From the NCBI RefSeq assembly GCF_901686465.1, contig NZ_LR594487.1, positions 3,051,773 through 3,115,772 of the forward strand: 64,000 bases of DNA. The letters run 5' to 3'. The translations under genes were made by a program, and so were the position numbers. Of this stretch, positions 37,834-49,003 are shown in pieces (position 1 is the first letter of the stretch; every line of letters begins with the position of its first letter). This DNA comes from Halorubrum sp. DM2. GTDB lineage: Archaea > Halobacteriota > Halobacteria > Halobacteriales > Haloferacaceae. A model generated the notes under the pieces. That model searched no databases. It saw only the letters and a list, made by a program, of their open reading frames with translations, and was not told where the DNA came from.

Positions 37834-38387
37834 CGGGACCGAGCGCCGATATCGTTATTTAACCTGGACCGGTCAGCGGCACCGATCGCTTATACCTGAA
37901 CATGGCGGTTGGCGCGCGCCTGCGAGCGGTCGCCTGTGGCGACCGCGAGACAGCGCCGCGCGAGGGAGTCGGCGGCGACCGGCGGGAGCCGCCGACGAGG
38001 CTGGGGAGGCGTGAGGTGCTGTGCGGAGCGGTGCGGGGTGGGACTCGAAGGGGCAGTCGCCGGCGGCGAAGCCGCCGGCTGCCCGAGGCGCGTAGCGCCT
38101 CGCTGCCGCGAGGACGGCGCACGCTCGCTGCGGTCCTCACTCGGTCGCTACCGCTCCCTCGTTGCGGTCCTTACTTCGCCTGCGCCGTCCTCGCGGCTGG
38201 GGCTTCGGTGGCGTCTGTGTCTGTCTGTGATTTATAAGCAGTGGCTCTGTTGAGATCCTATTCTTCAGGCAGTTTCTCGTCTGAAACAGCCGGGCGATGA
38301 GACTGCGTATTGAGCGATAAGCCACTAATGTGTGTCAAGAATCAGTGAGAGCGTGTATTTAATAGAATACGAGAATTGAGCCATCAC
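37834..38387. other. Long gene-free interval with structured repeat and element end
   Basis: These 550 bases hold a TATA-like cttatac (37888-37894), structured repeat copy 1 (37903-38213) and the left end of the 411-base mobile element with its target duplication (38235-38242 onward). Frames open in this region run through inverted repeats and are not believed to be genes. Confidence 0.7.
37903..38213 (+). repeat. Structured intergenic repeat, copy 1
   Basis: Related to 48655-48908. Perfect hairpins: GCGGTCGCC/GGCGACCGC at 37926-37934 and 37938-37946 (loop TGT); GTCGGCGGC/GCCGCCGAC at 37968-37976 and 37988-37996; GCCGGCGGC/GCCGCCGGC at 38059-38067 and 38071-38079; GAGGCGC/GCGCCTC at 38085-38091 and 38095-38101. 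A perfect 16-base long-range stem pairs 38106-38121 with 38181-38196. Conserved single-stranded blocks are gacgaggctggggagg, ggggtggga(c/t)tcgaaggggcag and ggctggggcttcgg. A TATA-like sequence lies just upstream (37888). Reads as a structured RNA or a structured mobile DNA; no coding capacity is convincing. Confidence 0.8.
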
Positions 38388-48566: not shown

Positions 48567-49003
48567 ACGTTCGCTACGCGCCGGAGAAGGGAGTGCGTTT
48601 CGCCCGCGAGGACTCTCATGTGAGACGACAACGTCGATCACCCACAACCAAACGAGGCGGTGGCGCGTGCCTGCGAGCGGTCGCCACCGGCGACCGCGAA
48701 GCAGCACCGCGCGAGGGAGTCGCGACCGAAGGGAGCGACGAGGCTGGGGAGGTGTGAGGCGCGGTTGCGGTGCTGTGCGGGGTGGGATTCGAAGGGGCAG
48801 CCGCGAGGGCGAAGCACGACGACGTAAGCACCGCAAAGAGCGAACGGAGTGAGCGACTGAGGAGCGCAACGAGTCGCGCGAGTTCTCGCGGCTGGGGCTT
48901 CGGCGGTCTTCGTTGTGACCCGATATCGACCGCCGTCACCGTCGGGTTCTCCGCTCGTAGACGCCACAGCGCACAAAATAGCAGTTCTCGAACTATCCCG
49001 ACC
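48567..49003. other. Gene-free interval holding structured repeat copy 2
   Basis: About 440 bases between the hypothetical gene and the membrane-protein gene. Most is the structured repeat (48655-48908). The remainder is GC-rich spacer ending near an AT-richer patch (48971-49000), and no gene is convincing. Confidence 0.6.
48655..48908 (+). repeat. Structured intergenic repeat, copy 2
   Basis: Second copy of the repeat at 37903-38213. Hairpin GCGGTCGCC/GGCGACCGC at 48677-48685 and 48689-48697 keeps the same stem with a different loop (ACC). The second hairpin is shorter but still perfectly paired: GTCGC/GCGAC at 48719-48723 and 48735-48739, around a loop similar to copy 1. A long-range stem CAGCCGCGAG/CTCGCGGCTG pairs 48798-48807 with 48885-48894, and GCGACT/AGTCGC is nested inside. 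The interior between the long-range arms is unrelated in sequence to copy 1. No TATA box as clear as in copy 1. Confidence 0.8.

Follow-up and report, generated by a model that had tools for sequence, protein, structure and literature searches.

A dispersed intergenic repeat family of Halorubrum with one composite fold kept by compensatory change

Between the genes of Halorubrum lies an old repeat family, with relatives elsewhere in the order, that keeps one fold (P1-P2, P3 and the P4 rod) by compensatory base change and whose P4 hairpin can flip within its arms and acquire twin-hairpin inserts. About 130 copies of ~245 nt each are dispersed between the genes of the Halorubrum chromosome studied here. 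The description of the family, of its fold, of selection on that fold and of an inversion in one copy is secure, whereas a cis-acting RNA function at the 3′ ends of genes is a tentative reading drawn from gene context.

Results

Copy 2 and the repeat family

The window, the whole 64,000-nt stretch analyzed (positions 3,051,773–3,115,772 of a 3.45-Mb contig), contains two copies of the repeat as detected by blastn within it. A first-pass annotation had reported two copies with the same arms, which is correct; the arms of copy 2 lie near the interior that it delimited (48808–48884). Copy 2 is a canonical copy with the usual interior of the family, and the odd one is copy 1. The whole element of copy 2 (GCGG-TGGCGCG ... 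CTGGGGCTTCG) occupies 48657–48902 on the + strand, as defined by matches in its own genome and by the edge of conservation, which on the left rises at −5 (117 copies). A 3′ tail, starting with GCGGTCTTCG, follows at 48903–48913 (+ strand), where conservation extends ~11 nt past CTTCG in 113 copies. The own genome yields 40 further scored matches to copy 2 at 77–85% identity, plus shorter pieces, with 233 candidates at a first look. A covariance model of P4 recovers 130 matches at E ≤ 0.001 among 150 scored of 9,553 candidates in this genome and gives copy 2 a score of 123.1 bits on the + strand.

Fold and covariation

The first helix of the element is P1 (48663–48670 with 48704–48712; span 48663–48712, + strand), which closes P2 and was assigned from column counts in alignment A2 (37 copies). 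One P1 pair, 8–47, appears there as TA in 21 copies, CG in nine, TG in three, CA in three and a gap in one, and the remaining P1 pairs are mostly invariant. P2 is the hairpin GCGGTCGCC-ACC-GGCGACCGC at 48677–48697 (+ strand); across 90 copies its arms pair over at least 5 bp in 65, with 23 distinct arms, as counted by a crude script. By the same kind of count P3 (48719–48739, + strand) has arms of at least 6 bp in 80 of 90 copies, with 31 distinct 5′ arms; it is short in copy 2, which is among the 10 copies below 6 bp. A conserved GACGAGGCTGGGGAGG and a G/T-rich linker of variable length follow at 48737–48785 (+ strand, alignment A2).

P4 (48786–48902, + strand) is a long hairpin with tandem G-A mismatches, recognized from pair counts in alignment A1 and from RNA folding, and it contains the interior singled out in the first-pass annotation. 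Going inwards, a 5-bp outer stem is followed by a GGG/GGG internal loop, then by an 11–13-bp stem and by a rod in which 2-bp steps alternate with tandem G-A mismatches up to a tip of 3–4 nt. In copy 2 its arms pair 48790–48794 with 48898–48902 and 48798–48810 with 48882–48894. Where both arms were found, P4 is 114–118 nt long in 40 of 43 own copies, all 40 with an interior of the type of copy 2, and the other three carry inserts. Across copies the pairing inside P4, its tandem G-A mismatches and the types of its loops are conserved, down to the innermost G-A pairs (columns 58–69 and 59–68), which are unchanged in 40 of 40. In four copies (L210, L233, L244 and L254) the rod is lengthened on both strands together.

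Compensatory base changes exceed controls in A1, in A3 and in ortholog pairs (see below), as in structured noncoding RNAs. Since RNAalifold on a MAFFT alignment gave a poor model, the P4 pairs were assigned manually from A1 before being tested on additional loci; the A1 counts are thus not independent of the structure, whereas the A3 counts mostly are. In A1 (40 own copies), 99.5% of the 1,110 cells at paired positions are standard pairs, with 106 double-sided changes against a shuffle mean of 27.3 and change on both sides in 14 of 28 pairs; slid structures are 29–45% paired. In A3 (86 model matches from 80 later-fetched loci, in an alignment that is fitted to the model, duplicates one A1 copy in one row and holds L238 and L244 on both strands), 97.6% of 2,330 cells are paired, with 240 double-sided changes (shuffle mean 57) that affect 21 of 28 pairs. 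The RNA fold of the whole element of copy 2 by itself is unremarkable (z −1.53), and the fold becomes visible only when copies are compared.

We assign the + strand as the folded strand because G-T cells exceed A-C cells on it (15:2 in A1 and 41:23 in A3). The tandem G-A pairs of P4 also lie on this strand. Stability alone cannot pick the strand, as the minus strand is about as stable for its composition (z −3.82). RNA parameters reproduce the comparative P4 for copy 2 (−53.4 kcal/mol, z −3.68), and with DNA parameters the tip folds differently; an RNA rather than a single-stranded DNA fold is favored by these predictions, not proven.

Copy 1: an inverted P4 core and an insert

Copy 1 (~37904–38207, + strand) matches the 5′ part of copy 2 at 83% in blastn and is rearranged beyond it. 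Compared on the same strand, the two interiors indeed share almost nothing, as the first-pass annotation had it, their identity of 0.576 lying below the mean for shuffled copy 2 (0.61). They are not unrelated, however: the reverse complement of the copy 1 interior is 0.747 identical to copy 2, and the maximum of 300 shuffles is 0.69. In blastn the copy 2 interior matches copy 1 at 38207–38105, on the minus strand only (77%, E 7e-14), and the covariance model places the P4 core (model positions 15–106) at 38105–38197 on the minus strand, flipped relative to its arms (38197–38105, 77.6 bits, E 1.3e-13). The 5′ arm of this P4 carries a type III twin-hairpin insert of ~48 bases with two hairpins (38057–38104, + strand), read directly from the sequence. 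At the orthologous site in another species (genome G043, L293), P4 has the normal orientation; its identity is 0.887 to the reverse complement of copy 1 and 0.629 to copy 1 read forward. Taken with the reverse-complement match, this ortholog identifies copy 1 as a copy whose P4 core was inverted in place and which gained a twin-hairpin insert.

Flips were sought in 19 weak or odd copies besides the window. At least three copies have a flipped P4 (copy 1, L238 and L244, the latter two also from the own genome) against 130 model matches, copy 1 with the insert in addition. Twin-hairpin inserts of ~50–70 nt with covarying stems occur in several further copies and are of four kinds: type I (L248, L251, L254, L255 and L178), type II (L035, L243, L245–L247, L250 and L251), type III (copy 1, L241, L253, L233, L248 and L249, and in other species L055, L073, L080 and L081) and type IV (L031, L252, L253 and L256). 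Types I and II face each other across a single internal loop of P4, and type III is found at many sites in both orientations, as if mobile itself. Several copies (L011, L013, L028, L030, L034 and copy 1) share MITE-like flanks, GGCTCTGTTGAAATCCTATTC ... GTCTGAAACAGCC and CAGTACAGG...CGATCTGCGGT.

The apparent change of interior between copies is thus due to inversion in copy 1, L238 and L244 and to inserted twin hairpins. The proposal, made from the sequence of the window, of a structured and RNA-like repeat in a conserved frame is borne out by the family-wide fold; the accompanying suggestion of a hypervariable cargo or recognition interior is contradicted by the narrow length range of P4 and its kept pairs and loops, and neutral decay, named as the outcome that would overturn it, by the double-sided changes in A1 and A3.

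Orthologous sites and sequence turnover

Between species, the location and orientation of copies are largely conserved while their sequence turns over. Sixty copies were taken from five relatives because they matched copy 2 or the model strongly. Of these, 35 are flanked on both sides by sequence that matches a copy-bearing locus of the own genome (flank identity 89%), with the same orientation in 33 and the opposite in two; the other 25 are not. At the site of copy 2, the element is present in 20 of 27 scored genomes, the own included, and absent in seven, with three further loci lacking an anchor. As it is missing from these seven orthologous gaps, the element is dispensable there. Filled and empty orthologous sites thus both occur, and the immediate flanks are too diverged to place a junction. 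An extra gene of ~300 codons lies beside the copy 2 site in some relatives (L059, L063, L067, L071, L074 and L078), with or without the element. One empty site (L076) has a single TATATAAAC and a filled one (L080) has TATATAAAC ... TTTATAAAC, as would be expected either from insertion beside a TTATAAAC repeat or from loss of the element through recombination between such repeats.

In 22 ortholog pairs, double-sided changes number 78 and one-sided changes 13, against 486 pair cells that stayed the same and 20 that broke; 10 of the broken cells fall in two pairs with lengthened rods that are probably misaligned; five of the 27 pairs were left out of this count, their P4 being not excisable or of unusual length. 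The 50 nt flanking the element on the left have an identity of 0.68 between orthologs against 0.62 in random pairing, and those on the right 0.60 against 0.60. Retention of the fold in ~130 dispersed copies, and at orthologous sites with such randomized surroundings, is unlike a dead repeat.

Between the 94 full-length own copies, nearest-neighbor identity ranges from 0.77 to 0.915 (median 0.86), and with no pair above 91.5% recent duplicates are absent. The ortholog is the best match in none of 20 pairs, with a median rank of 54 of 94 (20 of 27 pairs were ranked, the rest having no full-length copy on one side). Orthologous copies resemble one another no more closely than randomly chosen members do. 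Columns 6–120 hold G-C in 120 of 123 own copies and A-T in seven of nine copies from G048 and in seven of 11 from G022; in 11 of 32 scored orthologs both sides of this pair differ, as A-T. A species-specific pair of this kind suggests concerted change across copies, and the remaining loss of ortholog signal may reflect saturation under a fixed fold rather than conversion.

Distribution

The family is present in all 52 Halorubrum genomes tested. A DNA search of 293 genomes and 87 genera of the order found matches, many of them partial, in 191 and 60, respectively, and a model search of the phylum under strict filters found 58 of 392 genomes, the matches listed all lying within the order. Among 50,697 phage records there was no match, and viral carriage was rejected on this ground; 11 of 72,556 plasmid records matched in part, none covering 80%. 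Nor was any link to a retroelement, an anti-termination locus or a toxin-antitoxin locus, all named in the first-pass annotation, seen in an unsystematic look at the neighboring genes. Rfam 15 gave no match in the window at the gathering score (best over 48600–48960, E 2.5), and no description of the family was found in searches of open-license PMC papers. It resembles candidate structured noncoding RNA classes in its covarying fold without a reading frame and differs from them in standing outside Rfam 15 by the searches made and in its ~130 copies per genome. Noncoding RNAs in haloarchaeal vesicles are reported to have no common motif (PMC10927574).

Gene context and promoter-like boxes

Gene context was scored with a crude codon-usage gene caller trained on seven genes of the window, dropping low-scoring calls wholly inside the element and its tail. 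No copy lies inside a gene call (0 of 107). The 103 copies with neighbors on both sides sit between convergent genes in 39 cases, tandem in 49 and divergent in 15, compared with 5, 32 and 25 for 62 gaps (≥60 nt) that lack an element, drawn from the same loci and the window (convergent excess 39/103 vs 5/62, P = 2e-5). In the 58 copies whose left gene runs towards the element, the gene ends a median of 51 nt away (minimum 11 nt). Since insertions survive best between gene ends, this context is no proof of function, and at the 15 of 103 copies between diverging genes no gene 3′ end faces the element.

A TTATAA-like box is found within 40 nt upstream of 30 of 118 copies, mostly 13–25 nt before the element edge, and in 0 of 118 in each of two control windows. 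Copy 2 has no such box; most orthologs of its site do. These boxes fit independent transcription and were counted against a cis-acting 3′-end reading. The element has no T stretch, which PMC7237163 gives as the intergenic terminator motif of Haloferax volcanii; the same paper places hairpins upstream of 503 termination sites in Haloferax.

Discussion

Comparison with known mobile and repeat elements

REP/BIME elements are bacterial hairpin repeats scattered between genes, in many cases at 3′ ends and between convergent pairs; a unit of the GTAG/CGTC-tagged REPs is 20–40 bp long and comes with a RAYT transposase. The Halorubrum family is likewise a dispersed hairpin repeat outside genes in many copies; it differs in being several times longer (~245 nt), in its one composite fold with a tandem G-A rod and in being archaeal, and no RAYT-type transposase was seen linked to its copies. 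An IS605/TnpB origin was rejected, as no ends are shared with IS200/IS605 elements: nine TnpB and two Y1 transposase loci of the own genome were examined, and only stretches of 16–42 nt match the copies (best E 3.7e-6).

The nearest known elements, from what their published account describes, are the palindrome-associated transposable elements (PATEs) of Haloquadratum walsbyi and the SMRs of Haloquadratum (PMC3119063). As portrayed there, PATEs are, like the Halorubrum family, haloarchaeal, present in many copies, non-coding and bounded by palindromes near their ends, and they too have core-deleted short forms and are hit by small hairpin elements. The Halorubrum copies show palindromes near both ends (P1-P2 and P4) and no coding capacity. 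They stand apart, relative to that description of PATEs, in places shared between species and a far more conserved whole fold. The twin-hairpin inserts sit in hairpins of the element as SMR-As sit in PATE palindromes, but are ~50–70 nt long compared with the ~110 given for SMR-A (PMC3119063).

What the copies may do

Our preferred reading, held with somewhat less than even confidence, is that of an old, site-stable, recombining family of structured, cis-acting 3′-end RNA elements. A transcript running past its stop codon would enter the element at the 3′ end of the gene, and the folded element would mark or protect that end, or would stop or block transcripts between converging genes. The host cells are polyploid, and recombination or gene conversion between copies could spread species-specific variants through the family; inversion of P4 would be a by-product of its inverted-repeat arms and not a programmed switch. 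A role at 3′ ends, if it holds, would help explain what keeps convergent genes apart in such packed genomes, and the concerted change of the copies could be followed in ~50 sequenced Halorubrum species. That the whole order carries an undescribed class of such devices, with more than 100 per Halorubrum chromosome, fixed in place for the age of the genus, held in fold by selection and shuffled between sites by recombination until orthologs are no closer than random copies, is a larger claim that we regard as unlikely.

Mobility must once have been needed to spread the copies; recent movement has left no sign here. A non-autonomous mobile element like PATEs, served by a transposase in trans, requiring its fold for mobility and landing preferentially at gene ends, would account for the high copy number, for the sharp left edge with unrelated flanks, for the 20 filled and seven empty sites among 27 scored and for the core-deleted tail units (see below) and inserts, which resemble terminal-only PATEs and palindrome-targeting SMRs as PMC3119063 depicts them. 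We consider this reading somewhat unlikely, given that none of the pairs among 94 copies exceeds 91.5% identity, that 35 of 60 places are common to different species, that phage matches are nil and plasmid matches few and partial, and that TnpB/Y1 loci share only short stretches with the copies. The upstream boxes, absent from the controls and found in the majority of copy 2 orthologs, together with the RNA-like fold, would suit copies that each encode a small RNA under a promoter of its own, the RNA acting in trans, e.g. as a scaffold, and the copies being redundant with one another; with 88 of 118 own copies lacking a box, copy 2 included, and with a trans-acting RNA needing no fixed places beside gene ends, we judge it improbable.

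Against the preferred cis-acting 3′-end reading one might also set P4 as an invertible switch that turns the element on or off by flipping between its arms. At least three copies are flipped (copy 1, L238 and L244), one of them with an unflipped ortholog, yet three flips stand against 130 model matches, one flipped copy also carries an insert and no recombinase is linked to the family, which makes a switch very improbable. Hardly any credence attaches to the copy 2 interior as decayed neutral sequence or variable cargo: copies 1 and 2 seem unrelated when compared pairwise on one strand, but the interior is common to the family and covaries in A1 and A3.

Reading frames and tail units

A 112-aa frame on the minus strand (48638–48976) spans copy 2. 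A coding reading was rejected, as the three minus-strand frames are about equally open in 95 full copies, whose lengths fall in all three classes (37, 33 and 25). Antisense open frames across whole copies, of which this is an example, are probably spurious, and the annotations of related genomes probably list similar antisense frames as hypothetical proteins. Downstream of some copies (e.g. L020, L022 and L009) lie tail units that run from CTGGGGCTTCG to the next CTGGGGCTTCG and are 44–111 nt long. Among them, 45 of the 48 from the own genome and all 17 from other species have a length divisible by three; some units have stops in both aligned frames, so that plain coding is no explanation for the multiples of three.
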